Assembly (NCBI RefSeq): GCF_036194065.1
Contig: NZ_CP108095.1
Coordinates: 1,302,001 to 1,366,000 of the forward strand
DNA: 64,000 bases
Direction of reading: 5' to 3'
DNA from: Streptomyces sp. NBC_00239
Lineage (GTDB): Bacteria; Actinomycetota; Actinomycetes; Streptomycetales; Streptomycetaceae
The first letter of the stretch is position 1, and each line of letters opens with the position of its first letter. A program made the position numbers and the translations under genes. The notes beneath the pieces are model-generated. The model was not told the DNA's origin, did not search any database, and was given only the letters and a program-made list of their open reading frames with translations. Shown piece after piece: positions 16,396 through 64,000 of this stretch.

Positions 16396-16420
16396 CCGGC
16401 CACCGGCGCGCGCGGCGCGG

Positions 16421-48360: not shown

Positions 48361-48948
48361 TCAGCCCTGGGGCTGGAGGAAGTCCGAGAAGCGGGCGGTG
48401 ATGCCCTCCAGGTGGTCGGTCACGCGGGGCGGAGGCGGCGTGGTGTCGGCCGTCACCGTGCAGTGGATGAAGACGGGCGCGGGCGGGTTCAGGAGTTCAC
48501 CGCGCAGGGCTTCCGCCAGCGCCTGCGCCGAGTCCACGGCGTGGATGCGGGCGAATCCGCAGGCGCGGGCCCACCCGGGCAGGTCCACCAGGCTGCCGGG
48601 GGCGCGCTGGCCTCCGGTCGACGCGTAGACCCCGTCGTCGAGGACGAGCTGGATCAGCGGCAGGTCGGGGTCCTCGGCCGCCGCGACCAGCCCGACGGGG
48701 TTCATCAGGAGGCTCCCGTCGCCGTCCACCACCAGCGTGGTGCGGCGCGAGCGCAGGGCGATGCCGGTGCCGAGCGACAGGGCCAGCCCCATCGATCCCG
48801 TCATGTAGAAGTGGTTGCGGCGGTCGGCCGCGGCGCCGATGCGGGCGATGTAGCCGGTGGTGAACACCGTCGGCACGTCGGGGGCGGCCTCCAGCGCGAC
48901 CGCCACGGCTTCGGACTTGGTCAGGGGCAAGGTCATGGTCGTGGTCAT
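48361..48948 (-). CDS. ThDP-dependent decarboxylase, beta (cofactor-binding) subunit
   Basis: 195-residue C-terminal half of a thiamine-diphosphate enzyme of the sulfopyruvate (ComE) / phosphonopyruvate decarboxylase type. The ThDP motif GDGS (76-79) followed by Asn83 is intact (VDGDGSLLMNPVGL), as are GSMGLALSLGTGIAL and DDGVYASTGGQRAP. It needs the alpha subunit, whose gene ends four bases upstream, to form an active site at the dimer interface. It would decarboxylate a 2-oxo acid with a second acidic group. Last gene of the leftward operon. Confidence 0.88.
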   Translation of the reverse strand: MTTTMTLPLTKSEAVAVALEAAPDVPTVFTTGYIARIGAAADRRNHFYMTGSMGLALSLGTGIALRSRRTTLVVDGDGSLLMNPVGLVAAAEDPDLPLIQLVLDDGVYASTGGQRAPGSLVDLPGWARACGFARIHAVDSAQALAEALRGELLNPPAPVFIHCTVTADTTPPPPRVTDHLEGITARFSDFLQPQG

Positions 48949-48952
48949 GGGG

Positions 48953-49480
48953 TCACACCTTCCAGGCGAATTCGTCCGGGCGGACCAGGAGCGCGTAGGG
49001 CAGGCGCTTCTCGCGCACCACGGTGGCGGCGTGTTCCAGCTGCCGGTCGGCGTCCTCACCGGTCAGGTACGCGTAGTCGATGCCGAGGCCCTCCAGGACG
49101 GGCTCGGTGAGCCGCCCCATGGCGAGGTTCTCGGACGTCGTGTCCGGCGCCGTCCCCCGCATGCTGACCACCAGCAGCATGGGGATGCGGTACGGCACGA
49201 CCAGTGAGGCGAGCGCGTTGACGGACTGCCCGAAGCCGGAGTTCTGCATCAGCACGACCGGCGTGGCGCCGGCCAGGCCCGCCCCGGCGGCGACGCCGAC
49301 GGCGTTGTCCTCGCGCGCCACGACGTGGTAGTCGGCGCCCGCCTCCAGCAGGGAGAGCAGGGGGGCGAGGACGCCGCACGGGGTCCCGAAATACGGGCCG
49401 AAGCCGTTCGCCGTCAGCGCCTCGTACGCGGCGGCCTCCGCGGTGGCCGGTCGCACGGCCTGGAGTGTCTGGGTGGGCAT
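48953..49480 (-). CDS. ThDP-dependent decarboxylase, alpha subunit (ComD-like)
   Basis: 175-residue N-terminal half of the same enzyme. Glu57 in AREDNAVGVAAGAGLAG is the residue expected to activate ThDP. PVVLMQNSGFGQSVNALASL, MLLVVSMRG and LAMGRLTEPVLEGLGI are close to ComD and to phosphonopyruvate decarboxylases. AAGGAG precedes the ATG. The split alpha/beta format is that of archaeal sulfopyruvate decarboxylase, whereas Streptomyces phosphonopyruvate decarboxylases (Fom2 type) are usually one chain. Product would be an aldehyde such as sulfo- or phosphonoacetaldehyde. Confidence 0.88.
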   Translation of the reverse strand: MPTQTLQAVRPATAEAAAYEALTANGFGPYFGTPCGVLAPLLSLLEAGADYHVVAREDNAVGVAAGAGLAGATPVVLMQNSGFGQSVNALASLVVPYRIPMLLVVSMRGTAPDTTSENLAMGRLTEPVLEGLGIDYAYLTGEDADRQLEHAATVVREKRLPYALLVRPDEFAWKV

Positions 49481-49500
49481 GTGGGTCTCCTTCTGGTTGG

Positions 49501-51174
49501 TCACGTGTCGGTCGTGCCGGTGCCGGGCCGTCCGTCCGCCGGGCCGCCCAGCCGTCGCGCCTCGTCCAGGTGGTCGCTGGTCCCGAGGAGTTCCCACCGC
49601 TGGAGCGCCAGCGGCACGTTCCCCTCCCGCCACAGCCGTTCGTGGAAGGCGGCGAGGCTGAAGTCCGTCCCCGCGCGCCGCGCGCAGGCGGTCAGCAGGT
49701 CGAGCACCTGGGCCTTGCCCGCGAGGTAGCTGAGGCCCAGCCCGGGGCGGCCCGCGTAGAAGGCGGTCTCCTCCCACGCCGTCCGGCGGTCCATCGGGAC
49801 CAGGTCCGCCAACCGGTCGGCCGCCTCGTCGAGGGTCAGTTCGCCCAGCGCGAGTCCCAGGTCGATCTCCACCCGCAGGGCGCGCAGCCGCATCGCGTTC
49901 ACCACGAACCGCCGGCTGGCCGGGGCCTCGTCGAAAAGGCCGGCGAGCAGGGCGAGTTCCTCGGTGTGGAAGGCCACGCCCTCGTTCGCCGCCGAGTCGT
50001 AGTAGTGGCGCCGCACCGGGTTCTCGTGCCGCGCGGAGAGCGCGAGCTGCCAGGCGTGGACCCCTTCGTGGACGATGCCCACGCGCGGGTCCCGCGCCTC
50101 GGCGAGCTGGAAGTACGGGAGGTCCGGGCGGGGTTCGGGGATGTAGCGCACCGCGTCCTCGTCCCGGCCCGCCCCGGCGGCCGTGTAGTGCTGGACGCCG
50201 AGCCAGGTCAGTGGCGCCAGGTACGGCGGGACCGGCAGGTTGCGGTAGTGCCGCAGGTCGTCCGGCAGGTCGACCAGGCGCTCCTTGCGCAGGAACGCCC
50301 GGACGTCCAGCTCGTCCGTCCACTGCCGGGCGAGCTGCGCCTCGATGCCGGGGAGCAGCGGCGGGGCGTCCGGCTCCCCGTGCCGGCTCAGCACCAGCTC
50401 CGCGGCGGCGGCGCGGGCGTACTCGCGGCGGCCCATGTCGCGCAGTTGCTCCACCGTCCAGGGCAGGAGCGCGACCCGGTGGAGGAAGAAGCGGAACGCT
50501 TCGGGGCCCGGGCTGAACGGCCCGGTGCAGGAGGGCAGTAGCTCAGCGAGCCACTGCCGGTACGCGGTCAGGGCCCGGCGCGCCGTGCCGGACGCGGTGT
50601 CCAGTTCGGCCGCCAGGGCCGTCGGGAGCGGTGCGGCGAGCGCGGCGACCGCTGTGGCGAGGGCCTCGTCGGCGGTGTCGAGCAGCCGCAGCGTGTACGC
50701 GGCGAGCGGCGCGGCGGCGTGCCCGGCCAGGTTGGTCCGGCCCTGGGCGAGGATCCCGGGCACACCGGCGAGCCGGGCCGCCACCGCCCGCGCCCTCGGT
50801 TCACCGGCGGCGTCCGGCCGCAGCAGGTGGTGGTAGACCGGCAGCAGGGCCTGGTCGAGGTAGAAGCCGGGATTGCGCTGCCAGTCCCGCAGCAGGTGCA
50901 GTTCCCAGTGCACGCGGGCGAGCGCCGAGCCGATCAGCTCGCCGTCGACCCGTACGCGTACGGGCTCGGCCGTGAGGTCGAGCGTGCGGTGGCGGGCGGT
51001 GAACCCGGCGAGCACCCGGCCGCGCTCGGCGACGGCCTCCGGTGACCAGTCCGGAAGCGGGCCGTCGGGTCTCTCGACCCGGTTGAGGTCGTCGTAGCAG
51101 TCGGGCTGGGTGGCCTCGCGCCATGCCCAGAACTCTTCGGCCAGCTCGCGCAGAGCGGCTGCTGCGCTGCTCAT
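49501..51174 (-). CDS. DUF885 metallopeptidase-like protein
   Basis: 557-residue, mainly helical protein of the DUF885 family. A zinc-peptidase motif HEGVH (369-373) and a downstream Glu in NEGVAFHTEE (397-406) are present, so it is likely an active metallohydrolase. No signal peptide is seen, so it works in the cytoplasm. In a peptide cluster it could trim a precursor peptide, provide self-resistance or catalyse amide formation or cleavage; none of these is shown. GGGGAG lies before the ATG. It is 23 bases from asparagine synthetase and 20 from the ThDP gene. Confidence 0.85.
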   Translation of the reverse strand: MSSAAAALRELAEEFWAWREATQPDCYDDLNRVERPDGPLPDWSPEAVAERGRVLAGFTARHRTLDLTAEPVRVRVDGELIGSALARVHWELHLLRDWQRNPGFYLDQALLPVYHHLLRPDAAGEPRARAVAARLAGVPGILAQGRTNLAGHAAAPLAAYTLRLLDTADEALATAVAALAAPLPTALAAELDTASGTARRALTAYRQWLAELLPSCTGPFSPGPEAFRFFLHRVALLPWTVEQLRDMGRREYARAAAAELVLSRHGEPDAPPLLPGIEAQLARQWTDELDVRAFLRKERLVDLPDDLRHYRNLPVPPYLAPLTWLGVQHYTAAGAGRDEDAVRYIPEPRPDLPYFQLAEARDPRVGIVHEGVHAWQLALSARHENPVRRHYYDSAANEGVAFHTEELALLAGLFDEAPASRRFVVNAMRLRALRVEIDLGLALGELTLDEAADRLADLVPMDRRTAWEETAFYAGRPGLGLSYLAGKAQVLDLLTACARRAGTDFSLAAFHERLWREGNVPLALQRWELLGTSDHLDEARRLGGPADGRPGTGTTDT

Positions 51175-51197
51175 CAGTGGTCTCCCCGGTGTGGCGG

Positions 51198-53018
51198 TCA
51201 GGACGTCATCGTCACGTCGTAGGCACGCATCCAGCGGTCGACTTCGATGAGCGGCAGCAGCAGGTGCAGGTTGTCGGCCATCGTCATCATCTCGGTGCGA
51301 CCGGCGGCGAGTTCGCGCACCTTGGGCAGGTCCAGCAGGTGGGCCAGGGGTGAGGAGGCGTCGTCGAGCACCCGGTCGAGCTCGGCGCGGACGGCCTTGG
51401 CGTGGGCCGGCGAGAAGGTGGCGGGGAAGGCGCTCTTGCGGCGTTGCAGCACCTCCTGCGGGAGCAGGTCGGCGACCGCGGCGCGCAGCAGGCTCTTCTC
51501 CCGTCCGTCGGCCACCTTCATCTTCCAGGGCACGTTCCAGACGTACTCCAGGAGGGTGTGGTCGCAGAACGGCACCCGCACTTCCAGCCCGAGGGCCATG
51601 CTCATCCGGTCCTTGCGGTCGAGCAGGTACAGCAGCGGGCCTTGCAGGCTGAGGAAGAGGACCTCGCGCATCCGGGCCTGCAGGCCGGTCTCGCCGGTGA
51701 GCCGCGGGACCCTGGCGCGCAGGGTGGCGTAGCGGTCGCGTTCGTCGTCGCCGGGGCGGATCCGGGCCCGGACGTCGGGGGCGAGGCAGTCGGTCAGCCG
51801 GGGTGCGTTGCCGAGCCAGGGGAAGGTGTCGCCCCACACGGTGGCCTGGTCGAAGAACCAGGGGTAGCCGCCGAAGACCTCGTCGGCCGCCTCGCCGGAG
51901 AGCGCGACGGTGGAGCGTTCGCGGATCGCCTGGAAGAGCAGGTACATGGAGGCGTCGAACTGGCCGAGGGTGGGTGCGTCGCGGGCGGCGAGTGCGGCCG
52001 GGACGACGCCGGCCAGCGCCGCCGGGTCCAGGCTGATCGACGTGTGGTCGACGCCGATGTGCCGGGCGGCGGCCCACGCGAAGGGGGTGTCCTGCTCCGG
52101 GCGCAGCGCCGTGGCGCGGAAGTCGTCGGCGGCGTTCTCGAAGTCCACGGAGAAGGAGCGCAGCCCGGGCGAGTGGTGCCGGGCGGCCAGGGCGGTGACG
52201 GCCGAGGAGTCCAGGCCGCCGGAGAGCAGGGTGCACAGCGGGACGTCGGCCACCAGCTGGTGGGCGACGGTGTCCTCCAGGATCTCGCGGACCCGGCGCA
52301 CGGTGGTGTCCTCGTCGTCGAGGTGCTCCTGGCTGACGAGCCGCCAGTAGGGTGCCTCGTGGGCTCCGGAGCGGTCGACCCGGACCATGTGTCCGGGCTG
52401 TACCTGGCGCAGGTCGGTGTAGGGGGTCTCCCAGGGCATGGCGAGCCGCGGGTTGAACAGGATGGGGAGTTTGTCCTCGCTGGTGCGTGCGGTGAACAGC
52501 GGGTTGGCGAGGACCGCCTTGGGTTCGGAGCCGAACAGGACTCCGCCCCGGTAGGCGTGGTAGTAGAGCGGTTTGACGCCCAGCCGGTCGCGGTACAGGA
52601 GCAGTTCCTCCCGGGCGGCGTCCCAGATGGCGAAGGCGAACATGCCGGAGAGCCGGTCGATGAAGCCCGTCCCCCACTCCAGGTAGGCGCGCAGGACGAC
52701 CTCGGTGTCGGAGGCGGTGGTGAAGTGGTGGCCGCGGGCGAGGAGTTGGTCCCGCAGTTCGCGGAAGTTGTACAGCTCGCCGCTGTAGGTGAGCACCACC
52801 GGGGCCCGGCTGCCGCGCCGGTGGGCGGTCATGGGCTGGACGCCGCCCTCCAGGTCGACGATGGCCAGGCGCCGGTGGCCGAGGGCGGCGTGGGGGGCGA
52901 TCCAGGTGCCGTCGGCGTCGGGCCCGCGCCGGTGCAGGGACGCGGTCATGGCCTCCACCGTCGGGCGTTCGGTGGTGAGGTCCCGGGTGAAGTCGATCCA
53001 GCCGGCGATGCCGCACAT
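51198..53018 (-). CDS. asnB: Glutamine-hydrolysing asparagine synthetase
   Basis: 606-residue class II amidotransferase. Cys2 (MCGIAGWIDF) is the glutaminase nucleophile, and RRGPDADG and SGELYNFRELRDQL complete the Ntn domain. The synthetase domain has the PP-loop SGGLDSSAV and ALSGEAADEVFGGYPWF. It makes Asn from Asp, Gln and ATP, or amidates another carboxylate. AAGGAGG before the ATG. Within this cluster it may supply Asn to the NRPS module whose adenylation domain reads as Asn-specific, or convert a cluster intermediate to its amide. Confidence 0.93.
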   Translation of the reverse strand: MCGIAGWIDFTRDLTTERPTVEAMTASLHRRGPDADGTWIAPHAALGHRRLAIVDLEGGVQPMTAHRRGSRAPVVLTYSGELYNFRELRDQLLARGHHFTTASDTEVVLRAYLEWGTGFIDRLSGMFAFAIWDAAREELLLYRDRLGVKPLYYHAYRGGVLFGSEPKAVLANPLFTARTSEDKLPILFNPRLAMPWETPYTDLRQVQPGHMVRVDRSGAHEAPYWRLVSQEHLDDEDTTVRRVREILEDTVAHQLVADVPLCTLLSGGLDSSAVTALAARHHSPGLRSFSVDFENAADDFRATALRPEQDTPFAWAAARHIGVDHTSISLDPAALAGVVPAALAARDAPTLGQFDASMYLLFQAIRERSTVALSGEAADEVFGGYPWFFDQATVWGDTFPWLGNAPRLTDCLAPDVRARIRPGDDERDRYATLRARVPRLTGETGLQARMREVLFLSLQGPLLYLLDRKDRMSMALGLEVRVPFCDHTLLEYVWNVPWKMKVADGREKSLLRAAVADLLPQEVLQRRKSAFPATFSPAHAKAVRAELDRVLDDASSPLAHLLDLPKVRELAAGRTEMMTMADNLHLLLPLIEVDRWMRAYDVTMTS

Positions 53019-53057
53019 CGTGGCCTCCTTGGGGGCGGGGTCGGGTCGGGTGTGGGG

Positions 53058-54227
53058 TCAGGGGCGCGCGGGTTGCGCGGCGGGGGTCCGCGGGGTGGAA
53101 CGGGGCAGGCCGTCGAGGAACTCGTCCAGGTCGACGGCGCGTTGGCCGCTCACGCCCGGGCACTGCCAGCGCAGGTCCGTCCGGGCGGGCCGGTCCGCGT
53201 CGTGGAAGTACACGGCCTCCAGGGCGCCGCCCGTGGTGTCGTACGCCAGTACGGGGTTGGCGGTGAGGAGGTCCCGGACCTCCGGGGTGTCGCGCAGGAC
53301 GCGCAGCATCAGCCGCTTGTCCCGGAAGTGGTTGTCGGGCAGGGTGACTTCGGGGTGCATCTTGCGCTTGAACTGGAAGATGCCCTTGCTCAGGAAGGGC
53401 TCGCAGCCCGAGAGGTCGACCCGGGTCAGGCCGTGCTCGGCGGCCCACTGGAGGATCAACACGTACATCGCCATGTACGTGCCGGAGCGGTAGGGCTCCT
53501 CGCCGCCGGCCTCGACGCCGGCCAGCCGGACGACCAGCGTGGCGCCCTCCAGGCGGCACAGCATCCCCGCCACCCGGCGGCCCGACTCGCGCAGGAAGAA
53601 CAGCACGCCGCGCCGGAAGAGGCAGACGAGGGCGCTGCGCCGTTCCTCCGAGCGGGCGGCGTCGCGGTGCCGGTTGCGCATGGTCGGCCGGTGCATGCCG
53701 TCGTAGAAGGAGTGGAAGTCGGCTTCGGAGGTGGCGACTTCGAGGGTGCGGTCGCGGGAGCGGAGCTCCCTGGCGTGCTGCTGGCGGGCCTTGCGCGAGA
53801 GCCGCTGGACGACCTCCTGCGGGTCGGGGCCCACCGGAACCGACAGGCTGATCCGGAAGGGCAGCAGCAGGCAGTGGCGCGGAGCCGTCCGCGGGGCGGC
53901 GCGGCGGAGCAGGCCGACCGCGAGGAGGTCCGCGCCGGTCGCGGCGCGGCCGTCGGCCAGTTCCGCCCAGGTGGTGCGGCGGCGGCTGTGCTGCGCGCCG
54001 GCTCCGCGGCGCTGTTCGAGGAACGGCAGTACGTGGGTGAGGCCGTGCGCGAGTCCGCCGTACGCCAGGGTCGGGCTCCCGCCGTCCGGGCCGCCGGTCG
54101 GTCGGGACACCGTGACGGACGGGCGGGCGGCCGCGGCCGTCAGCGCATGGGCGCGGACGACGAGCGGGGCGGCGCTGTTGTTCCAGGCGTACCGCCAGTT
54201 GGGTGGGACGAGCGTCGTGGTGGGCAT
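53058..54227 (-). CDS. GNAT/FemAB-like acyltransferase
   Basis: 389-residue protein with a poorly conserved N-terminal half and a C-terminal BioF2/FemAB-type acetyltransferase domain (about 130-330): SRKARQQHARELRS, DFHSFYDGMHRPTMRNRH, RVAGMLCRLEGATLVVRLAG and TRVDLSGCEPFLSKGIFQFK. Relatives transfer aminoacyl or acyl groups from tRNA, CoA or carrier proteins to amines. Its place between the PLP enzyme and asnB suggests it links an amino acid to a small-molecule or carrier-bound acceptor. No membrane helix. Confidence 0.78.
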   Translation of the reverse strand: MPTTTLVPPNWRYAWNNSAAPLVVRAHALTAAAARPSVTVSRPTGGPDGGSPTLAYGGLAHGLTHVLPFLEQRRGAGAQHSRRRTTWAELADGRAATGADLLAVGLLRRAAPRTAPRHCLLLPFRISLSVPVGPDPQEVVQRLSRKARQQHARELRSRDRTLEVATSEADFHSFYDGMHRPTMRNRHRDAARSEERRSALVCLFRRGVLFFLRESGRRVAGMLCRLEGATLVVRLAGVEAGGEEPYRSGTYMAMYVLILQWAAEHGLTRVDLSGCEPFLSKGIFQFKRKMHPEVTLPDNHFRDKRLMLRVLRDTPEVRDLLTANPVLAYDTTGGALEAVYFHDADRPARTDLRWQCPGVSGQRAVDLDEFLDGLPRSTPRTPAAQPARP

Positions 54228-54250
54228 CGTGGTCTGCTCCGGGCCGGCGG

Positions 54251-55612
54251 CTACGCGTGCGCGGCCGCGAGGACGGCCCGTGCGAGGTCGTCGACGGTGG
54301 CGACGCGGGTGAGGTGCTCCTCGCGCAGCGCGGGGAGCAGTGCGTCGCTGTAGTAGCCGGAGCCGTGCACCACGACGTCGGTGTCGGGTGCCAGGAGGCC
54401 GCGTTCCCGGGAGATCAGTACCCCGGTGAGTGCCTTGACCAGCGACCACTCGCGGATGAGGGACGGGTCGGCGGCGATCTCTATGCCCGCGGCGGCGGCC
54501 AGTTCCCGTACGTGGGCGAAGTGCTCCAGGCACTCCCGGCGGGAGACCACGATCCCGCCGCCGCCGTGGCGGGCGACGATCTCGTTGAGCTGGGTGCGGG
54601 TGGCCGGCTCCTTGGTGTAGAAGGTCGGGTCGATCACCTCTTCGGGGTCGTCGGTGACGGCGGGGAACTCCGCCATGGAGTCCTGGCGCCACACGCCGGC
54701 CGCCTCGTCGTACGTGTAGTCCGGGACCTTCGCGCCGAGGAGGCTGGTCACCATGTCGGCCGTGGCGAGCTGCTGGACCAGGTGGAATCCGGGGTGGCGG
54801 GCGGGCACGGCGTGCCCGGGCAGTCCCTCGGTGAGCAGCCGGTGCCCGAGGTGGTAGCCGAGCAGCCCGAAGGCGCTGGACACGGAGTGCACGTGGACGC
54901 GCGGCGCGGAGTCGGCCGTGATGGGCAGGAGTTCCGCCTCGGCGAACGCGCGGGCCGCGTCGGCGATCCGGTAGTTGTCGAGGTCCAGGGTGTACCAGAC
55001 GCGGAAGCCGGTGGTGTCGAGGATCTCGGTGGCGTGCCGTCGCACCACCTCGCTGCTGAGCAGCTTGACGTCGGCCGGCTGCTCGACCCGGGCCAGGGTC
55101 ACGGGGTTGGCGGTGCGCAGCGCCTGGTCCGCGGTGAGCGCGCAGTCGCGCAGCTTGGTGCGGGAGGCCTCGGGGGCGAGCATGACGATGCGCAGTTCGT
55201 CGGGGGTGGCCAGCCCGGTGGCGTGGGCGCGGGCCACGGCGTCGCGCAGGGCCGTTCCCTTGTTGCCGGAGGTCGGGGTGAACAGCAGTACGCGCTCGCC
55301 GGTGCGGCGGATGTGGTCGGCCGCGCGGGCGATCATGAGCAGGGAGGCCATGGTCTTGGTGGTCCTCGCGCCCGGGTTGCGCATCAGGTCGAGGATGTGG
55401 GTGCGCGCGTCCACCTGGGTCAGACCGATGTCGGTGACCTCGGTGAACTTCGCGAAGGACGGGTGTTTCGCGGCGAGTTCGAGGGGGATGTCGGCGGCGG
55501 TGGTCCGCTCGGCGGTCACCTTCCGCGCGGCGGTACGGATCTCCTCGAAGTACCGGTCGAGCGCGTTGTGCACGACCTGGCCGGTGACGGCCGCACGGCC
55601 CGTTTCGGACAT
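54251..55612 (-). CDS. PLP-dependent threonine-synthase-fold enzyme (DUF6002-like)
   Basis: 453-residue enzyme of PLP fold type II. The candidate PLP lysine is Lys86 (GARTTKTMAS). The substrate loop is TPTSGNKGTALRDAV (SGNKG 115-119). A cofactor loop in VHSVSSAFGLLGYHLG and a C-terminal DTDVVVHGSGYYSDALL are placed as in threonine synthase. Relatives include archaeal cysteate synthase, which uses phosphoserine and sulfite. Co-location with a ComDE-like decarboxylase suggests an analogous beta-replacement, but diaminopropionate-type or other reactions are possible. AAAGGAG precedes the ATG. Confidence 0.8.
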   Translation of the reverse strand: MSETGRAAVTGQVVHNALDRYFEEIRTAARKVTAERTTAADIPLELAAKHPSFAKFTEVTDIGLTQVDARTHILDLMRNPGARTTKTMASLLMIARAADHIRRTGERVLLFTPTSGNKGTALRDAVARAHATGLATPDELRIVMLAPEASRTKLRDCALTADQALRTANPVTLARVEQPADVKLLSSEVVRRHATEILDTTGFRVWYTLDLDNYRIADAARAFAEAELLPITADSAPRVHVHSVSSAFGLLGYHLGHRLLTEGLPGHAVPARHPGFHLVQQLATADMVTSLLGAKVPDYTYDEAAGVWRQDSMAEFPAVTDDPEEVIDPTFYTKEPATRTQLNEIVARHGGGGIVVSRRECLEHFAHVRELAAAAGIEIAADPSLIREWSLVKALTGVLISRERGLLAPDTDVVVHGSGYYSDALLPALREEHLTRVATVDDLARAVLAAAHA

Positions 55613-55636
55613 GGCTGATCCACTCCTTTGGGGAAA

Positions 55637-55691
55637 CTGTCGGGTAGCTGTCGGGTAGCTGTGTCGCTCGGATCGCCGGCTCGGATCGCCG
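55637..55691. repeat. Tandem 11-mer and 13-mer between operon genes
   Basis: CTGTCGGGTAG is tandemly doubled (55637-55658) and GCTCGGATCGCCG is perfectly doubled (55666-55691), in the 98-base gap before the PLP enzyme gene. This is the widest gap in the operon and may hold an internal regulatory site. Confidence 0.6.
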
Positions 55692-55710
55692 GCTCCGGAG
55701 ACCGGCGGCC

Positions 55711-57522
55711 TCAGAGGTCGGCGGCGGGCGCGGCGGTGATCTCCGCGATGAGGGCCTCCTCCACCGTGTGGGCGAGGGCGCGCACGGTGGGCGCGTCGAA
55801 CAGGGCGCGGACCTCCAGGTCCACGCCGAAGGCCTGGCGGACGCGGGAGACGATCCACATGGCGCGCAGGGAGTCGCCGCCCAGGTCGAGGAAGGCGTCG
55901 TCGATGCCGATGCGTTCGCGTTCCAGGGCTTCGGCCCAGATGTCGTGGATGATCTCCTGCTGGGGGTTCTGCGGGGGGACGGATGCGGCGGCCGGGTCGA
56001 GGGGGCCGTCCGGCCGGGGCAGGGCGGCGCGGTCCAGCTTGCCGTTCTTGTTGAGCGGCAGGGCGTCGATCGGGACCAGCGCGGCGGGCACCATGTAGGA
56101 GGGGAGCCGCTGCTCGGCGTAGGCGCGCAGGGCGGCCCGGCCGGGCAGCGCACGGCCGGGTGCCGGGACCAGGTAGGCGGTCAGCTGCCAGCTGCCCTCG
56201 GCGGACTGCCGGGCGACGGTCGCCGCCTCCTGCACGTCCGGGTGGCCGGCGAGGACGGCGTCCACCTCGGCCGGCTCGACCCGGTGCCCGCGGATCTTCA
56301 CCTGGCCGTCGATGCGGCCGATGAACTCCAGCTGGCCGCCGTCGGCGTCACGCCGGACCAGGTCGCCGGTGCGGTACATCCGGCTGCCCGGTGGCCCGTA
56401 CGGGTCGGGGAGGAACCGCTCCGCCGTCAGGTCGGGACGCCCGAGGTACCCCCGGTTGACCCCGGTGCCGGCGATGTGGAGCTCGCCCGGTTCGCCGTCC
56501 GGTACGGGGGCGAGGTCCGCGTCCAGGACGTGGCCGCGCACGCCGGGGAGGGTCCGGCCGAGGGGTGGGCTGTCGGGCCACGCCGGCAGGCCTCCGGTCA
56601 GGGTGCAGGCGGTGGCCTGGTGCGTCTCGGAAGGGCCGTACTGGTTCTCCAGGACCGTGCCGTCCAGTGCCCCGAGGAACCGGCGGATCTCGGGTGTCAG
56701 CCGCAGGGGTTCACCGGCCGCGACGATCTCGGTCAGTACCAGCCGCCGGATGAGGTCGGGGTCCTGGAGGGCGGTGCGGGCGAGCTGCCGGAGGAACGCG
56801 GGTGAGAGGTAGACCCGTTGGACCCGCTCACGGGCCATCAGATCGAGCAGGGCCGCCGGGTCCTGCCGGTGCCGCTCCTCCACGAGGACCAGCGAGCCGC
56901 CGCTGAGCAGCGCGCCGAAGATCTCCTGGAGCGAGACGTCGAAGCCGAGCGAGGTGAACTGCAGGAAGACCTGCGGCCCGGGCAGCCGGGTGACCGCCCA
57001 GTCGGCGACGTTCGCGATCGACGCCGAGGTCAGGCCGATGCCCTTGGGGCGCCCGGTGGACCCGGACGTGAAGATGACGCAGCGCAGGCCCTGCTCGGGC
57101 AGGAGCCGGTCGGGCCGGGTCGCCGGGTACACGTCGAGTCCGGCGGCCAGGTCCTCGCACGGCAGCACGGGGAGCGGGGCGCCGTCGAACTCCCGGGCCA
57201 GTGCCCGCTCGGTGAGCAGGAGCAGCGCGCCCGAGGCGGTGAGGCTCTCCACGAGCCGCTGCGCGGGGTGGCCCGGGTCGAGCGGCTGGAAGGCGGCGCC
57301 GGTCTTCAGGGCCGCGAGCATGGCGACGAATGCCTCGGGGCGGCGGCTCATGCAGATGCCGACCACCGTCTCCGGCCCCGCGCCCCGGCTCCGCAGGAAG
57401 TGCGCGAGCCGATTGGCGCGGGTGTCCAGCTCGCCGTAGCCGACCTGCTCCCGGCCGGCCACGATCGCCGGGCTGCCGGGTGCGGTCCGGGCCCGTTCTT
57501 CGAAACGCTCGATGATGTCCAA
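55711..57522 (-). CDS. Free-standing NRPS adenylation-thiolation protein
   Basis: 603-residue two-domain protein: adenylation (about 10-505; FTSGSTGRPKG, YRTGDLVR, NGKLDR) and a carrier domain (about 525-595; LGGDSLRAMW). It activates an amino acid and holds it as a thioester for tailoring or transfer. Reading the pocket by the GrsA alignment gives D-V-Q-Y-V-A-Q-Q-A-K, closest to proline codes (DVQ..AH..K) but with Gln instead of His at position 322. The TTG start has AAGGAG six bases upstream. First gene of the leftward operon. Confidence 0.9.
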   Translation of the reverse strand: MDIIERFEERARTAPGSPAIVAGREQVGYGELDTRANRLAHFLRSRGAGPETVVGICMSRRPEAFVAMLAALKTGAAFQPLDPGHPAQRLVESLTASGALLLLTERALAREFDGAPLPVLPCEDLAAGLDVYPATRPDRLLPEQGLRCVIFTSGSTGRPKGIGLTSASIANVADWAVTRLPGPQVFLQFTSLGFDVSLQEIFGALLSGGSLVLVEERHRQDPAALLDLMARERVQRVYLSPAFLRQLARTALQDPDLIRRLVLTEIVAAGEPLRLTPEIRRFLGALDGTVLENQYGPSETHQATACTLTGGLPAWPDSPPLGRTLPGVRGHVLDADLAPVPDGEPGELHIAGTGVNRGYLGRPDLTAERFLPDPYGPPGSRMYRTGDLVRRDADGGQLEFIGRIDGQVKIRGHRVEPAEVDAVLAGHPDVQEAATVARQSAEGSWQLTAYLVPAPGRALPGRAALRAYAEQRLPSYMVPAALVPIDALPLNKNGKLDRAALPRPDGPLDPAAASVPPQNPQQEIIHDIWAEALERERIGIDDAFLDLGGDSLRAMWIVSRVRQAFGVDLEVRALFDAPTVRALAHTVEEALIAEITAAPAADL

Positions 57523-57878
57523 GGCGGCTCCTTGTCGCCGATGCGGCGTCGCCGGTGCGGCGGTGCTCCCCGGGGTCCGCGATCGCGCCCCGCTGGATTG
57601 CGTCCTCCCGCACTCACGGCGGGGTCGGCGGCCTCAGGATCAGCAACCCGCGGCGCCGGAATCAACGCCAACTGAACGAAGTCAGGGGCCCTTTGCGATA
57701 TTCGAGGCTGTCCGGGCACGGTGGCCGGGGTGGTGGGAGCCGGACTGAACGAAGTGTCCGCGGGCTTGCCGGGAGGCGCTTGCCCGTACGACGGAGCGCT
57801 GCTGATGATCCTTCGGAGCAGAGGTCGCCGGCCGGTCCGGCCGGGCGCCGACACCATCAACGGTCGGAGGACGACGCC
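57523..57878. promoter_or_regulatory. Divergent promoter region of the NRPS cluster
   Basis: 356 bases between the leftward A-T gene and the rightward mbtH-like gene. The 12-mer ACTGAACGAAGT is directly repeated at 57671-57682 and 57744-57755 (73 bases apart, about seven helical turns). A less GC-rich CTTTGCGATATTCGAGG follows the first copy. These are good candidates for a pathway-specific activator binding both sides. Confidence 0.5.
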
Positions 57879-58061
57879 GTGTTCAAGGTCGTGATCAACC
57901 ACGAGGAGCAGCACTCCATCTGGCCCGCGGACCGGGAGGCCCCGGCCGGCTGGACGGAGGTCGGCGTGGCCGGCAGCAAGGACGAGTGCCTGGAGTACGT
58001 CCGCGGCGCGTGGCCGGACATCACCCCGCTGAGCGTCCGCCGGGCCCTCGCCGAGTCCTGA
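57879..58061 (+). CDS. MbtH-like protein
   Basis: 60-residue NRPS accessory protein needed for folding or activity of many adenylation domains. All family landmarks are present: NHEEQHSIWPADREAPAGW, GSKDECLEYV and WPDITPLSVRRAL (the usual TDxRPxSLR end is slightly divergent). GTG start with GGAGG eight bases upstream. It lies 239 bases before the NRPS gene on the same strand. Confidence 0.95.
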   Translation: MFKVVINHEEQHSIWPADREAPAGWTEVGVAGSKDECLEYVRGAWPDITPLSVRRALAES

Positions 58062-58143
58062 CGCACCGGCGCACGGGGCTTCCGGCGAACGGGCTCCCGG
58101 CGCGCGGCTCCGAGCCCCGGTCCGGACCACCTGCGCACGGGGT

Positions 58144-58218
58144 CCTGCGCCCGGTCCGCCTACGCCCAGGCCGCCTGCGCCCGGTCCGCCTACGCCCAGG
58201 CCGCCTGCGCCCGGGCCG
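58144..58218. repeat. 30-bp tandem repeat between mbtH-like gene and NRPS
   Basis: The 30-bp unit CCTGCGCCCGGTCCG + CCTACGCCCAGGCCG begins at 58144 and 58174, with half a unit at 58204. The two 15-base halves are themselves similar. The array lies in the leader before the NRPS start at 58301. Confidence 0.75.
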
Positions 58219-58300
58219 GGGCGCCGCTCCCCGGAGACGGGCCCCAGACGCCGTATCCAGTCCACGAAGACCGTGTCCCGGTCGTATGTTCGGAGAGGCA

Positions 58301-61300
58301 ATGACTGTCGAGCACCCACCGCGGCTCTCCGCCGCCCAGGCCGAGCTGCTGGCCCGCCGCCTGCGCGGCACGGCCGGTGACCGCGCGAGCGACCCGGCCG
58401 CCCTCATCCGGCGGGCCCGCGACGAGCGCCCGGTCCTGTCGTTCGCGCAGCAGCGGCTCTGGTTCCTGGAGCAGATGCACCCGGGCTCGATCGCCTACGT
58501 CACCGCCGACACGGTCTACCGGATCCGGGGGCCGCTCGACGTGCCCGCCCTGCGCCGGGCCCTGCGGTCGGTGGCCGAGCGCCACGCCACGCTCCGCTCC
58601 CACTTCGCGGACGACGCCGGGCAGCCCTACGTGGTGGTCGGCCCGGCGGACCGCGTCACCCTGCGCGTCGTCGACCTGGCCGGCCGCGCCGACCCGGCGG
58701 CCGACGCAGCGGACCACGTCGCGCGGGAGCTGCGCACGCCCTTCGACCTCGCCGCCGGACCACTGCTGCGCACCACCTTGCTGCGGCTCGGCGAGGACGA
58801 CCACGTCCTGGCCGCCGTCGTCCACCACATCGCCTTCGACGGCTGGTCGATCGGGGTCTTCGAACGCGACCTGGCCACCGCGTACCGGGCGGCCCGCGCG
58901 GGCGGGGAGCCGGACTGGGCCCCGCTGCCCGTCGACTACACCGACTACGCGGCCTGGCAGCACCGGACGCAGGCGGACCGCCGGACGAAGGACCGGCTGG
59001 ACCGGTGGCGGCAGGCCCTCAGCGGCGCGCCCACCTCCCTGCAGCTGCCCACCGACCGTCCGCGCCCGGCGGCGCCCGGGTACCGGGGCGCCGTGGCCGC
59101 CTTCACCGTGGGCGAGGTGACGGCCGACCGGCTGCGCGCCCTGTCCCGTGAGCAGGGCGCGACGCTGTTCATGACGGCGCTGGCCGTGTACCAGGTCCTG
59201 CTGGGCCGCCACACGCACAGCAGCGACTTCCTCGTCGGCTGCCCGTCCGCGGGCCGCACCCGGCCCGAAGTCGAGGAGCTGATCGGCTTCTTCGTGAACA
59301 CCGTGCCCATCCGGGCGGACCTCACCGGCGACCCGAGCGTGCGCGCCCTGGTCGACCGGGCGCGTTCGGCCACCCTGGAGGCCTTCGCCCACCAGGACGT
59401 GCCGTTCCAGCGCCTCGTCGAGGAACTCGCCCCGCCGCGGGACTTCAGCCACAACCCGCTGGTCCAGGTCTGGTTCGACCTGTCCGCCCCGGGCGCCGGC
59501 CTCCGGCTCGACGGCGTCGCGGCGGAGCCCGTACGGCCGCGCGACCCCTCGACCAACTTCGACCTCGCGCTGCACCTCACGGACCCCGGGTCGGGTCCGC
59601 TGACCGGCGAACTCGTCTACGCCACCGACCTCTTCGACGAGGCCACCGCCCGCTCGATCGCCGAGCAGTACGTCCACCTGCTCGACCAGGCCGCCCGGCA
59701 TCCGGACCGCCCGGTGGCGGAGCTGCCGCCGGCCGACGCCGACCGGCTGTCCGGGCTGCTCGACGCCTGGAACGACACCGCACGCCCCCTCCCCGAGGGC
59801 ACGGTCACGGACGGCTTCGAGCGCCAGGTCGGCCGGACCCCCGGTGCCACCGCCCTGATCGAGGGCGACCGCCGGCTGACGTACGGCGAGCTCAACGCCC
59901 GTGCCAACCGGCTCGCGCACGAACTGCGGGCCCGCGGCGTCGGCCCGGAGCGGACGGTCGGCCTGCTGCTGCCGCGCGGCACGGACTTCGTGGTGGCGCT
60001 GCTCGCCGTGCTCAAGGCCGGGGGCGGCTACCTGCCGCTCGACCCCGCGCACCCGGCGGACCGCATCGCCTACCAGCTGGCCGACGCCCGGGCCGGGACG
60101 GTCGTCACCGACCGCCGGCTCGCCGGCCTGCTGCCGGACGGCGCCGCCGGCGTGCTGCTGGAACCGGACGGCTTCGGGCAGCGCCCGGAAACCGACCCGG
60201 CGCGGCTCGCCACGGGCGGCAACCTCTGCTACGTGATCTACACCTCGGGCTCCACCGGACGTCCGAAGGGCGTCGCGATGGCCCACGCGCCGCTGCTCAA
60301 CCTGATCCGGTGGCAGGCCGACCGGACCACCGTCGCCGGTCCCACCCTCCAGTTCTCCTCCCTGCACTTCGACGCCTCGTTCCAGGAGCTGTTCACCACC
60401 TTCCTCACCGGCGGCTCGCTGGTGCTGATCGGCGAGGACGAGCGCCGCGACCCCCGCCGGGTGCTGCACGCGATCCGCTCCCACGGCGTCCGGCGGCTGT
60501 TCTGCCCGCCGATGGTGCTGGAGCAGCTCGCCGTCCAGGACGCCGCCGAAGCGGTGGCGCCGCTGCCGCTGCGGGAGATCGTCACGGCGGGCGAACGGCT
60601 CTCCCTCGGCAAGGAGGTACGCGCCTTCCTGGCCCGGATGCCCGGGATCGTCCTGGAGAACCAGTGCGGCCCCACCGAGACGCACGCCGTCGTCGCCCAC
60701 CTGATGACCGGCCCGCCCGAGGACTGGCCCGAGCGCCCCCCGATCGGCCGGCCGATCGCCAACACCCGCATCCACGTTCTGGACGACCGCATGCGGCCGG
60801 TGCCGGTGGGGATGCCCGGCGAGCTGTACGTGACCCGGCCCTGGCTCGCCCGCGGCTACGTCGGCCGGCCGGAGCTCACCGCCGAACGGTTCCTGCCCTC
60901 CCCGTACGCCGGCGAGCCCGGGCAGCTGATGTACCGCACCGGCGACCTGGTCCGCTGGCTCCCCGACGGCACCGTGGAATTCCTCGGCCGGGCGGACGAC
61001 CAGGTGAAGATCCGCGGATACCGGGTCGAGCCCGCCGAGGTGGAGGCCCGTCTGCGGGAGCTTCCGCAGGTCGCCGAGGCCGCGGTGCTGCCCGTCGAGG
61101 TCGCTCCCGGAGACCGCCGGCTGGTGGCCTACCTCACCGCGGACGGCGGCTCCCGGCTCGTGCCGGCCCGGCTGCGGGCCCTGCTGGCGCAGTCCCTCCC
61201 GGACTACCTGGTCCCCTCCCACTTCGTCACCGTGCCCCGCCTCCCGCTCACCGCCACCGGCAAGCTGGACCGCGAGGTGCTGCTGCGCACGGAGCTGCCC

Positions 61301-64000
61301 GCCCCGGGGCAGGGCGCCGAGGGCGTCTCCCGGGCGCCGCGCGGCCCGCGGGAGGAGATCCTCGCGGGACTGTTCGCCGAGGTCCTGGCACTGCCGCGGG
61401 TCGGCGCCGAGGACGACTTCTTCGCGCTCGGCGGGCACTCGCTGCTGGCGACTCGTCTGATCGCCCGGATCCGTTCCGCCTTCGGGGTCGAGCTCGCGAT
61501 CCGCGACCTGTTCCGGGCGCCGAGCGTCGCCGGGCTGGTAGACCTGCTGGACGCCTCGCGGCCTTCCCGGCCGGCCCTCCGCGCGGCCGAACGGCCCGTC
61601 GTGCTGCCGCTGTCCGCGGCTCAGCGGCGGATCTGGTTCCTCAGCCGGACCGGCCAGAGCGCGGACTACAACTCGCCGTTCGCGCTGCGGCTGCGCGGCC
61701 GGCTCGACGCCGACGCGCTCGCCGCCGCCCTCGCCGACGTCGTCGACCGGCACGAGGCGCTGCGGACCGTCTTCCCCGACGACGCCGCCGATCCGCACCA
61801 GCAGATCCTGCCGCCCGGCTCCGTACCTGCGCTGCTGGCGCGCGCCGAGTGCCCGCCCGACGGGCTCGCCCCGGTCCTCGCCGCCTTCGCCGCGCGGGAG
61901 TTCGACCTGGCCGTGGAGCCCCCGCTGCGTGCGGCGCTGTACCGGACCGGCCCCGGGGAACACGTCCTGGCCCTGGTGGTGCACCACATCGCCACCGACG
62001 GCTGGTCCCTGGGCGTGCTCCTGCGCGACCTCTCCGCCGCCTACACCGCACGGGGCGTCGGCGAAGCCCCGGAACTGCCGGAACTGCCGGTGCAGTACGC
62101 GGACTTCGCGCTGTGGCAGCTCGGCCTGCTGGCCGAGGAGCACGATCCGGACTCCGCGGCCGCCCGGCAGCTGTCGTTCTGGCGGGAGCGGTTGGCCGGC
62201 CTGCCGGTCGAGCTGGAGCTGCCCTACGACCGTCCCCGGCCCGACACGGCGGACAACTCCGGCGCCACCGTGCCGCTGACGTTGGACGGCGAGCTGCACG
62301 CCCGGCTGCTGCGGCTGGCCGGAGCCCACGGCTGCACGCTGCTGATGGTCCTCCAGGCCGCCCTCGCCGCGCTGCTGTCGCGGCTCGGGGCCGGCACCGA
62401 CATCCCGATCGGGGTACCCGCGGCGGGCCGCGGCGACGAGGCCCTGGACGACCTGGTCGGTGTTTTCGTCAACACCCTCGTGCTGCGCACCGACGTCTCC
62501 GGCGACCCCACCTTCGCCGAGCTGCTGGCCCGGGTGCGGGACGAGGACCTGGCCGCGTACGAGCACGCCGACCTGCCGTTCGAGCGGGTGGTCGAGGCGG
62601 TCAACCCGGACCGCTCACTGGCCCGCCACCCGCTGTTCCAGGTGGTCCTCCAACTGGACGAGAGCGTGACCGACGGCCTGGCGCTCGCCGGTCTGGAAGC
62701 CGCCGAGGAGCCGGTGCCCTTCGAGGTGTCCAAGTTCGACCTGCGGGTCGCCCTGGCCGCCCGGACCGACGGCGGCGGGGCGCCGGCGGGGCTGCACGGT
62801 GTCCTGGAGTACGCGCGCGCCCTGTTCGACGCGGACACCGCCGAGGCCCTGGCGGGCCGGCTGCACCGGCTGCTGGAGCGGCTGGCGGCCGACCCGGACC
62901 GGCGGATCGGCTCGGTCGACCTGCTCACGGACGAAGAGCGCCACCGCATGCTCGTCGACTGGAACGACACCGCCGCGGACGTGTCCGAGGAGAACGTGCC
63001 CGAGCTGTTCGAGCGGTTCGCGCGGCAGACCCCGGACGCCGTCGCCGTGCGCGCCGGCGCCGCCGTCCTCGACTACGCCGCGCTCAACGCACGGGCCAAC
63101 CGTTTCGCCCGCCACCTGGCGGGCCTGGGCATCGGACCCGAGTCTCTCGTCGCGGTGGCGCTGCCGCGCACCCCGGAGCTGGTGGCGGTGCTGCTGGGCG
63201 TGCTCAAGGCGGGGGCGGGCTACCTGCCGCTCGACCCGGAGCAGCCGCCCGAGCGGCTGGCCCGCATCGTCACGTCGGCGGCTCCCGCGCTGGCCGTCAC
63301 CACCACCGCGCTCACGGACCGGCTGCCCGCGCTGCCGCGGCTGCTCCTGGACGAGCCGGACACGGCGGCCGCCGTGGACCGGCAGCCGGCCGGCGACCTG
63401 GCACCGGGCGAACGCACCGCTGAGCCGACCCCGGCGACCACCGCCTACGTCATCTACACCTCCGGGTCGACCGGCGAACCCAAGGGCGTGGTGATCGAGC
63501 ACCGGTCGCTCAACCTGTACCTGGCGTGGGCCCGGCAGGCCTACCCGGCGATGGCGGGGCGGGCGCTGGTGCACTCCCCGGTCGCCTTCGACCTCACCGT
63601 CACCGGCCTGTGGGGGCCCCTGACCTGCGGCGGCTCCCTCCACCTCGTGACACTCGACGACAGCGAACCGGCGGCGGTGGAACCGCCGACCTTCGTGAAG
63701 GCGACCCCCTCGCACCTCGGGCTGTTCCGGATCCTGCCGCAGGCGTACGCACCCACCGGGCAGCTCGTCCTCGGCGGCGAGCTGCTGCTGGGCGCGGCAC
63801 TGGACGAGTGGCGCGCCGAGCACCCCGGGGTGACCGTGGTCAACGAGTACGGACCGACCGAGACCACGGTGGGCTGCGCCGAGTACCGCATCGAGCCGGG
63901 CGACCCCGTACCGGCCGGCGGCGTCACGATCGGCCACCCGATCTGGAACACCCGGTGGTACGTGCTGGACGAGGCGCTGTCCCCCGTGCCGGCGGGCGTG
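58301..64000 (+). CDS. Multimodular NRPS (C-A-T-C-A..., 3' end outside window)
   Basis: 1900 residues are visible and the frame is open at the window end. ATG with GGAGAGG upstream. Order: condensation 1 (HHIAFDG at 175-181), adenylation 1 (YTSGSTGRPKG near 645), carrier 1 (LGGHSLLATR, Ser near 1047), condensation 2 (HHIATDGWS near 1228) and adenylation 2 (YTSGSTGEPKG near 1720), cut before its core ends. No epimerase domain is seen. By GrsA alignment, adenylation 1 reads D-A-Q-F-V-A-Q-A-V-K (proline-like clade, like the free-standing A domain) and adenylation 2 D-L-T-K-L-G-E-V-G, the canonical asparagine code. Starting with a C domain, it receives its first acyl or aminoacyl group from elsewhere. 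Confidence 0.95.
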   Translation, partial: MTVEHPPRLSAAQAELLARRLRGTAGDRASDPAALIRRARDERPVLSFAQQRLWFLEQMHPGSIAYVTADTVYRIRGPLDVPALRRALRSVAERHATLRSHFADDAGQPYVVVGPADRVTLRVVDLAGRADPAADAADHVARELRTPFDLAAGPLLRTTLLRLGEDDHVLAAVVHHIAFDGWSIGVFERDLATAYRAARAGGEPDWAPLPVDYTDYAAWQHRTQADRRTKDRLDRWRQALSGAPTSLQLPTDRPRPAAPGYRGAVAAFTVGEVTADRLRALSREQGATLFMTALAVYQVLLGRHTHSSDFLVGCPSAGRTRPEVEELIGFFVNTVPIRADLTGDPSVRALVDRARSATLEAFAHQDVPFQRLVEELAPPRDFSHNPLVQVWFDLSAPGAGLRLDGVAAEPVRPRDPSTNFDLALHLTDPGSGPLTGELVYATDLFDEATARSIAEQYVHLLDQAARHPDRPVAELPPADADRLSGLLDAWNDTARPLPEGTVTDGFERQVGRTPGATALIEGDRRLTYGELNARANRLAHELRARGVGPERTVGLLLPRGTDFVVALLAVLKAGGGYLPLDPAHPADRIAYQLADARAGTVVTDRRLAGLLPDGAAGVLLEPDGFGQRPETDPARLATGGNLCYVIYTSGSTGRPKGVAMAHAPLLNLIRWQADRTTVAGPTLQFSSLHFDASFQELFTTFLTGGSLVLIGEDERRDPRRVLHAIRSHGVRRLFCPPMVLEQLAVQDAAEAVAPLPLREIVTAGERLSLGKEVRAFLARMPGIVLENQCGPTETHAVVAHLMTGPPEDWPERPPIGRPIANTRIHVLDDRMRPVPVGMPGELYVTRPWLARGYVGRPELTAERFLPSPYAGEPGQLMYRTGDLVRWLPDGTVEFLGRADDQVKIRGYRVEPAEVEARLRELPQVAEAAVLPVEVAPGDRRLVAYLTADGGSRLVPARLRALLAQSLPDYLVPSHFVTVPRLPLTATGKLDREVLLRTELPAPGQGAEGVSRAPRGPREEILAGLFAEVLALPRVGAEDDFFALGGHSLLATRLIARIRSAFGVELAIRDLFRAPSVAGLVDLLDASRPSRPALRAAERPVVLPLSAAQRRIWFLSRTGQSADYNSPFALRLRGRLDADALAAALADVVDRHEALRTVFPDDAADPHQQILPPGSVPALLARAECPPDGLAPVLAAFAAREFDLAVEPPLRAALYRTGPGEHVLALVVHHIATDGWSLGVLLRDLSAAYTARGVGEAPELPELPVQYADFALWQLGLLAEEHDPDSAAARQLSFWRERLAGLPVELELPYDRPRPDTADNSGATVPLTLDGELHARLLRLAGAHGCTLLMVLQAALAALLSRLGAGTDIPIGVPAAGRGDEALDDLVGVFVNTLVLRTDVSGDPTFAELLARVRDEDLAAYEHADLPFERVVEAVNPDRSLARHPLFQVVLQLDESVTDGLALAGLEAAEEPVPFEVSKFDLRVALAARTDGGGAPAGLHGVLEYARALFDADTAEALAGRLHRLLERLAADPDRRIGSVDLLTDEERHRMLVDWNDTAADVSEENVPELFERFARQTPDAVAVRAGAAVLDYAALNARANRFARHLAGLGIGPESLVAVALPRTPELVAVLLGVLKAGAGYLPLDPEQPPERLARIVTSAAPALAVTTTALTDRLPALPRLLLDEPDTAAAVDRQPAGDLAPGERTAEPTPATTAYVIYTSGSTGEPKGVVIEHRSLNLYLAWARQAYPAMAGRALVHSPVAFDLTVTGLWGPLTCGGSLHLVTLDDSEPAAVEPPTFVKATPSHLGLFRILPQAYAPTGQLVLGGELLLGAALDEWRAEHPGVTVVNEYGPTETTVGCAEYRIEPGDPVPAGGVTIGHPIWNTRWYVLDEALSPVPAGV

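Follow-up and report, generated by a model that had tools for sequence, protein, structure and literature searches.

A recurring DUF6002 enzyme module beside a non-ribosomal peptide synthetase gene cluster of Streptomyces sp. NBC_00239

What does a peptide synthetase cluster build when the genes facing the synthetase fit no pathway that one recognizes? This question is raised by the right-hand part of a 64,000-nucleotide stretch of DNA from Streptomyces sp. NBC_00239 (assembly GCF_036194065.1, contig NZ_CP108095.1, positions 1,302,001 to 1,366,000; hereafter the window), whose genome comprises 9.3 Mb in 5 contigs. Seven leftward genes (48361-57522, minus strand) stand here opposite the genes for an MbtH-like protein and a large non-ribosomal peptide synthetase (NRPS). 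A preliminary description, made from the letters of the sequence, had called the ensemble an unfamiliar but probably functional NRPS cluster, and this judgement is supported: every catalytic motif looked for in the cluster is present, and no match was recognized in the open-licence literature among the matches listed. The cluster is real, intact and syntenic with those of relatives, and it has no recognized known product among the matches listed; its NRPS is of a known kind and stands beside a recurring, putative building-block module. We infer the reactions proposed below from the genes and their motifs, from synteny and gene association, and from the fold of one enzyme, DUF6002.

DUF6002 (54251-55612, minus strand; 453 amino acids; Pfam family PF19465) was initially taken for a fold-type II enzyme dependent on pyridoxal 5'-phosphate (PLP). 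The Pfam PALP model PF00291, which matches 20 places in the host genome, does not have it among them; the fold-II call was nevertheless borne out by profile comparison and by the fold of a structure model. In the profile comparison, K86 and a PTSGN segment align with the Schiff-base lysine and the substrate loop of fold-II enzymes; K86 is present in at least 90% of 76 DUF6002 sequences, and S115 and N117 are invariant in them. The model, built from an 8-sequence alignment and searched with Foldseek against the pdb_via set, predicts a threonine-synthase-like fold that resembles threonine synthase, CapA2 and the tryptophan synthase beta subunit over about 280-340 residues, with the lysine and the SGN loop in register. 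The identity to these enzymes is only 11-14%, and DUF6002 stands apart from them as a family of its own beyond the reach of PF00291. A direct hhalign comparison of the DUF6002 profile with single threonine synthases, for which an unrelated control was also run, was not significant. At least 562 database relatives exist; PF19465 occurs in 33 of 392 congeneric genomes and, over its cut-off, in 12 of 394 genomes of the class.

The company that DUF6002 keeps is conserved. Scanning named genomes with the DUF6002 protein yielded seven loci, in six of which DUF6002, a FemAB-like transferase, an AsnB-type amidotransferase and a DUF885 protein are grouped in this order. The variations among the six comprise a PanD gene inserted in Lentzea cavernae (L015), a luciferase-like monooxygenase (LLM) gene in L017, and a DUF885 gene on the opposite strand in L016 and L018; in the seventh locus, from Kutzneria (L013), DUF6002 and PanD lie amid other NRPS genes. 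Streptomyces benahoarensis (L012) has the window's entire leftward operon together with divergent MbtH and NRPS genes, and so does genome G134 (L066 and L085), where the NRPS side likewise ends with genes for a TauD-like oxygenase, an acyl-CoA dehydrogenase, an LLM and a SARP-type (Streptomyces antibiotic regulatory protein) regulator. The arrangement recurs in L. cavernae with PanD between DUF6002 and the FemAB-like gene; here no thiamine diphosphate (ThDP)-dependent decarboxylase pair is found in the stretch and no match to its alpha subunit in the genome. The early description had named absence of synteny between operon and NRPS as an outcome that would count against it; gene order and divergence are kept in all three of these relatives.

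To place these loci in a wider frame, 44 DUF6002 neighbourhoods of 12-31 kb each, the window's own included, were read, with one duplicate left out. From the 33 congeneric genomes with PF19465, the host genome itself and G243, G349, G304 and G090, which gave short or weak matches, were not added; from 15 class genomes, the host, G088 and G223 were already in the set, and G511, G670 and G714 fell below the cut-off and were left out. Neighbour counts depend on a codon-usage gene caller, which missed the LLM gene of L014 (visible by tblastn) and the DUF6002 gene of L061. Within these limits, the 44 neighbourhoods contain a FemAB-like gene in 27 cases, PanD in 14, the ThDP alpha subunit in 8, AsnB in 11, LLM in 9 and DUF885 in 8; a Rossmann-like family (c6) is found in 15 and, by eye, an ATP-grasp-like family in 12. 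PanD lies no more than 122 bp from DUF6002 in 12 of its 14 neighbourhoods, and the 11 of these 14 genomes that were searched for all PanD copies carry 2 to 4 each. By comparison, among 37 congeneric genomes 29 have one PanD, 3 have none and 5 have more (3 of the 5 with DUF6002, 2 without). The neighbourhood of DUF6002 with FemAB-like, PanD and ThDP-pair genes is non-random, and the odd enzymes of the window exemplify a DUF6002 module that recurs elsewhere and is not bound to this particular NRPS.

In a tree of 42 DUF6002 proteins (L069 was excluded as coming from the same genome as L016; L075, with its gene in two pieces, and L061, with its gene not called, stand outside the tree), the window's protein falls into a clade of 12 with a support of 100/100. 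Five of the 12 loci carry the ThDP pair (2 by the alpha subunit alone, 20 kb away), 4 carry PanD, 1 has phosphoenolpyruvate (PEP) mutase-like and phosphonopyruvate decarboxylase genes (PepM-Ppd), and in 2 none was seen. In none of the 12 do PanD and the ThDP pair occur together, a number too small to prove exclusion; a strict exclusion is not upheld over the whole tree, where L063 and L064 carry both (2 of 42 rows). Over the tree, the ThDP labels require 6 changes and the PanD labels 8 (6 and 5 of these changes are forced by well-supported branches), and shuffled labels reached values as low as those observed in 9 of 500 (ThDP) and 42 of 500 (PanD) trials. The two decarboxylases have thus been gained or lost repeatedly, yet less often than under shuffling, and we suggest that a single pathway step may be filled by different decarboxylases across the clusters.

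In the window, this step would fall to the split ThDP pair, which had been so called at the outset and does consist of TPP_enzyme_C and TPP_enzyme_N domains with ThDP motifs (GDG...DD, rather than the classical NN ending, and REDNA) on separate genes: a ComE/RhiF-like beta subunit (48361-48948, minus strand, 195 amino acids) and a ComD/RhiE-like alpha subunit (48953-49480, minus strand, 175 amino acids). Its best NCBIfam models are those of the sulfopyruvate decarboxylase subunits, with 109.1 bits for beta (TIGR03846, cut-off 221.5) and 109.5 bits for alpha (TIGR03845, cut-off 147.95), followed by phosphonopyruvate decarboxylase (TIGR03297), against which the pair, scored subunit by subunit, reaches 95.4 (beta) and 94.6 bits for a cut-off of 312.5; all scores lie under the respective cut-offs. 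The pairs of L066 and L063 also remain under all cut-offs, with the phosphonopyruvate decarboxylase model scoring at least as high as the others for their beta subunits. The nearest solved relatives are RhiF (9iz3_B, E 1.5e-15) for beta and RhiE (9iz3_A, E 1.8e-18) for alpha. RhiEF is described as the split phosphonopyruvate decarboxylase of rhizocticin biosynthesis, with its PYR and PP halves encoded by two genes as in the window (PMC12141560; PDB 9iz3/9iz4). Unlike the situation with RhiEF, the host genome contains no PEP mutase match (TIGR02320, 0 in the genome), on which ground a phosphonate pathway was rejected, and the window pair lies far under the phosphonopyruvate decarboxylase cut-off. 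With the sulfopyruvate decarboxylase ComDE, the pair has in common the separate alpha and beta genes and the best-scoring models; it differs in falling under both subunit cut-offs and in that a search of the host genome found no ComA. The best host match to cysteate synthase (TIGR03844) reaches 37.3 bits for a cut-off of 324.9 and lies at other genes, so that a canonical sulfonate supply of the coenzyme M type was rejected as well.

The window's alpha subunit is tied closely to DUF6002. Used as a query, it matches 95 of the 392 congeneric genomes at E 0.001; an identity of at least 53% is reached in just 7 of them, with the next at 44%; all 7 (the host's own included) are in DUF6002 genomes and lie 0.6-21 kb from DUF6002. 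Among 16 further DUF6002 genomes, S. benahoarensis, S. lasiicapitis, G503 and, more distantly, G438 added alpha homologues, the one of S. lasiicapitis lying about 20 kb from DUF6002 if contig C9 carries the locus; the remaining genomes of this set have no close homologue, except S. aureoverticillatus, which is G329 again. The pair is present in the stretch in 8 of the 44 neighbourhoods, and alpha lies within 21 kb in 11. The difference is made by L016, L018 and L074 (alpha 12-21 kb away), for which the alpha subunit alone was searched for beyond the stretch; the tree labels count alpha as the pair.

The remaining operon genes were also assigned correctly by the early reading. The FemAB-like protein (53058-54227, minus strand; 389 amino acids), a transferase of the GCN5-related N-acetyltransferase (GNAT) type, matches PF13480 (Acetyltransf_6; E 1.1e-5; 26.1 bits, cut-off 22), and all 22 sequences compared share E276, F278, K281, G282, Q285 and K287; K281 and K287 are the candidates for the counterpart of FemX Lys305. 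The profile of these 22 matches 9wqy (E 1.2e-6) and 9wqw (E 3.2e-5), each entitled 'aminoacyl-tRNA-dependent peptide synthase', and it is from the 9wqy match that we predict the use of aminoacyl-tRNA. In DhpH, a Fem domain goes together with a PLP domain; in the window, the PLP enzyme and the transferase are distinct proteins, and the former is of fold-type II and belongs to a different family. According to a review, VlmA, DhpH, DhpK, PacB and Orf11 are aminoacyl-tRNA-dependent enzymes with a conserved lysine, and DhpH/DhpK of dehydrophos and PacB of pacidamycin are FemABX-like ligases in small-peptide pathways, PacB within an NRPS pathway (PMC12945691). The AsnB-type glutamine-dependent amidotransferase (51198-53018, minus strand; 606 amino acids; Asn_synthase and GATase domains) scores 487 bits against TIGR01536 (cut-off 267.1), with catalytic Cys2 in its MCGI start and an SGGLDSS motif; within the window's clade, 10 of the 12 loci carry AsnB. 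The DUF885 protein (49501-51174, minus strand; 557 amino acids) is metallopeptidase-like, with an HEGVH motif and matches to PF05960 (E 3.3e-39) and 3o0y (E 4.4e-11).

The seventh operon gene (55711-57522, minus strand, TTG start) encodes the free-standing adenylation-thiolation (A-T) didomain (PF00501, AMP-binding; PF00550, PP-binding) with its core motifs and LGGDSL. Its pocket code DVQYVAQQAK (codes were read by motif, the last K is assumed, and positions follow the GrsA numbering) is identical in L066 and L015, and reads DVQYVAQQSK in L012 and DMQYIAQQAK in L016 and L018. The top solved match of the pocket stretch is 8xjz, with two domains summed, followed by fragments of GrsB and TycB, which are the best when single domains are compared. 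With the first adenylation domains of GrsB and TycB, which we take to be proline-specific, the A-T has the FDVxxQE and GPSETH motifs in common, and its pocket region resembles theirs. Compared with GrsB, 4 of 9 pocket positions are equal, one is a V/I change and 4 differ (Y replaces S278, Q replaces both H322 and V330, and A replaces V331, in GrsA numbering); the pocket may be called proline-like on these sequence grounds.

We tentatively propose that the intact NRPS cluster draws on the leftward operon as a building-block module in which DUF6002 introduces sulfonate chemistry. On an activated serine, DUF6002 would exchange the leaving group for an anionic nucleophile, with sulfite as the leading candidate and cysteate, an isostere of aspartate, as the product. 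A dedicated decarboxylase would then take off the carboxylate: here the ThDP pair, acting after transamination (sulfopyruvate to sulfoacetaldehyde), and in sister clusters PanD. The FemAB-like enzyme would transfer an amino acid from aminoacyl-tRNA onto an amine of the product, AsnB would form an amide, and the DUF885 peptidase would trim. The free A-T would load a proline-like acid, oxidized by the acyl-CoA dehydrogenase and/or the LLM; the NRPS would append a second proline-like residue and asparagine, the latter hydroxylated by the VioC-like oxygenase, and its thioesterase (TE) would release a short peptide. We rank this sulfonate route first because it accounts for the constant proximity of the ThDP clade to DUF6002 in the genomes searched, and for how the pair could work in a genome without another known source of a pyruvate with an acid group at position 3. 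Several findings weigh against it: the A-T pocket is proline-like and not suited to a sulfonate; neither of the two known decarboxylase models is matched by the ThDP pair over its cut-off; sequence searches of the PDB with DUF6002 gave no significant match, and cysteate synthase does not stand out among the enzymes of related fold. By their scores, the clade PanDs tested (L015, L065 and L067) are aspartate decarboxylases of the ordinary sort, which speaks for beta-alanine rather than taurine. Beside the DUF6002 module of L070 (G290) stand a PEP-mutase-like and a true phosphonopyruvate decarboxylase gene, a poor fit to sulfite. Finally, of the 27 neighbourhoods with a FemAB-like gene, 12 lack both PanD and the split pair in the stretch read; among these, L016, L018 and L074 have the distant alpha subunit and L070 the fused phosphonopyruvate decarboxylase.

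A carboxylate version of the scheme, which we rate nearly as high and still consider doubtful, would let PanD or the ThDP pair provide a C3 unit (either beta-alanine or, from oxaloacetate, malonate semialdehyde) that DUF6002 joins to a PLP-bound aminoacrylate. Attack by carbon and ring closure would give a pyrroline, which the LLM would reduce to a 4-carboxyproline, to be amidated by AsnB and loaded by the A-T; attack by nitrogen would give an N-alkyl diaminopropionate. The orthodox PanDs (L049, L015, L065 and L067 all score over the aspartate 1-decarboxylase NCBIfam cut-off), the GrsB/TycB-like A-T pocket with its polar glutamines in place of H and V, the frequency of AsnB in the clade, and the PepM-Ppd pair of L070, which would provide a phosphono aldehyde, argue for it; yet the PanD product is an amine and not an aldehyde, no aminotransferase family is conserved beside PanD, and no precedent for such a fold-II carbon-carbon bond formation was found among the matches listed. 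In another reading, in our view improbable, the A-T would load plain L-proline for carrier-bound oxidation of the prodiginine type by the acyl-CoA dehydrogenase, and the DUF6002, FemAB-like and ThDP genes would make an amino acid or dipeptide of their own, to be joined later or to form a second product. The proline-like pocket, the partly RedW-like dehydrogenase and the DUF6002-FemAB modules whose stretch holds no NRPS gene are consistent with this, but the dehydrogenase reaches just 83.6 bits for a RedW cut-off of 650, and the unusual A-T code is kept beside DUF6002 in L066 and L015 and is one residue off in L012. Least probable of all is that the cluster belongs to a family already in MIBiG and went unrecognized: DUF6002 is named in no open-licence full text searched, and the gene-combination searches in these texts brought up no cluster recognized as this set among the matches listed. 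In the same texts, no paper has DUF885 together with an NRPS, and sulfopyruvate decarboxylase combined with gene cluster and Streptomyces found only the RhiEF review.

Should the sulfonate proposal extend beyond the window, which we regard as rather unlikely, DUF6002 would be the founding enzyme of a route, widespread among actinobacteria, to amino acids that are acidic antimetabolites; in it, cysteate or a close isostere would be converted by exchangeable decarboxylases (ThDP pair, PanD or phosphonopyruvate decarboxylase) into C2 acid aldehydes or amines that are peptide-capped via aminoacyl-tRNA, ligases or NRPSs. Its products would parallel the phosphonate peptide antibiotics, with a sulfonate (or carboxylate) as the acid group. 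An uncharacterized PLP family is now placed as fold-II, in the company of an aminoacyl-tRNA-type ligase and of a dedicated decarboxylase of varying chemistry, which gives a concrete three-enzyme assay for the DUF6002 reaction. DUF6002 is also a genome-mining handle for NRPS, polyketide, LanB-like and stand-alone clusters with one common building block. In L070 (5044-10768), the NTase-like, PEP-mutase-like (308.8 bits, just below the cut-off of 319.55) and fused phosphonopyruvate decarboxylase (379.9 bits, over the TIGR03297 cut-off of 312.5) genes form an operon tail to tail with FemAB-DUF6002, possibly a phosphonate version of the module. Where PanD occurs in the kribbellichelin and madurastatin clusters, it is likewise a dedicated aspartate decarboxylase, said to supply beta-alanine; the accessible parts of the two papers describe no DUF6002 link (PMC9962454, PMC10951976). 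The term also occurs once in a paper on aurodox (PMC9361827). The ichizinone cluster has LLM, MbtH and NRPS genes alike in kind, and was rejected as a match, the accessible part of its text having no decarboxylase or asparagine term (PMC12144821).

Measurement of the locus reproduced the operon as first outlined: seven open genes without inner stops, separated from left to right by 4, 20, 23, 39, 23 and 98 bp. That it faces an MbtH-like gene (57879-58061, 60 amino acids, named by sequence reading) and a large NRPS on the opposite, plus strand, 356 bp away, was likewise right, but the window end cuts the NRPS gene (58286-65521), and the cluster runs on to about 69767. MbtH homologues 75-83% identical adjoin the NRPS in L012 and L015. 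According to the domain search, the NRPS (2411 amino acids) has the order C-A-T-C-A-T-TE (C, condensation), with two HHxxxDG condensation motifs, two GGHSL carrier motifs and GWSFG in the TE; the A1 code is DAQFVAQAVK, and the A2 code DLTKVGEVGK is presumably that of asparagine. Extension to the right boundary, as had been advised, added four plus-strand genes. The TauD-family oxygenase (65575-66558; VioC/clavaminate-synthase-like) matches the wider family PF02668 (E 3.7e-16) and stays below the NCBIfam equivalog cut-offs for GntD (196 of 345 bits), clavaminate synthase (194 of 450) and VioC (149 of 419). It is followed by the acyl-CoA dehydrogenase-like gene (66583-67710, acyl-CoA dehydrogenase domains), the LLM oxidoreductase (67707-68621; PF00296, E 3.1e-46) and the SARP-type regulator (68931-69767), named by reading; the G134 cluster has a homologue of this regulator, 77% identical, at its corresponding end. 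A DDE_5 transposase gene (69726-70904; L009:11726-12904), which shares 42 bp with the end of the SARP gene, likely marks the right border. The window's own panD (41578-42045), about 6 kb left of the operon, is unlikely to be a cluster member and is probably a housekeeping gene, since it is the sole copy in the genome and the single panD of G134 lies more than 5 Mb from its cluster.

A number of minor observations concern other DUF6002 loci. DUF6002 occurs as a natural fusion with a TauD oxygenase (708 amino acids; G438, L083:9172-11298), adjoined by c6, a FemAB-like gene, a LanB-like Lant_dehydr_N protein, an ATP-grasp-like protein and a ThDP pair; the c6 proteins have about 340 amino acids, and a tested member (L049:11994-13019) has no Pfam or NCBIfam match. 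In L049, one class III-like aminotransferase gene stands beside PanD by eye. The stretch of Amycolatopsis L014, with neither PanD nor the ThDP pair, has, again by eye, a B12-binding gene like the glutamate mutase small subunit (16103-17589) and an Asp/Pro hydroxylase-like gene. A LanB-like dehydratase N-domain protein, perhaps another aminoacyl-tRNA-dependent ligase, lies beside DUF6002 and NRPS genes in L080 (4371-6665); L081 and L082 have genes similar to it in size and position. DUF6002 is accompanied by a methyltransferase (c24) in L053, L062, L074, L076 and L079 and, by eye, by an amidinotransferase-like protein in L053, L062, L074 and L079, the L079 copy having no Pfam match. In L068, L072 and L073, DUF6002 and an ATP-grasp-like gene lie in apparent type II polyketide clusters with a YcaO/TOMM-like (thiazole/oxazole-modified microcin) gene, as judged by eye.

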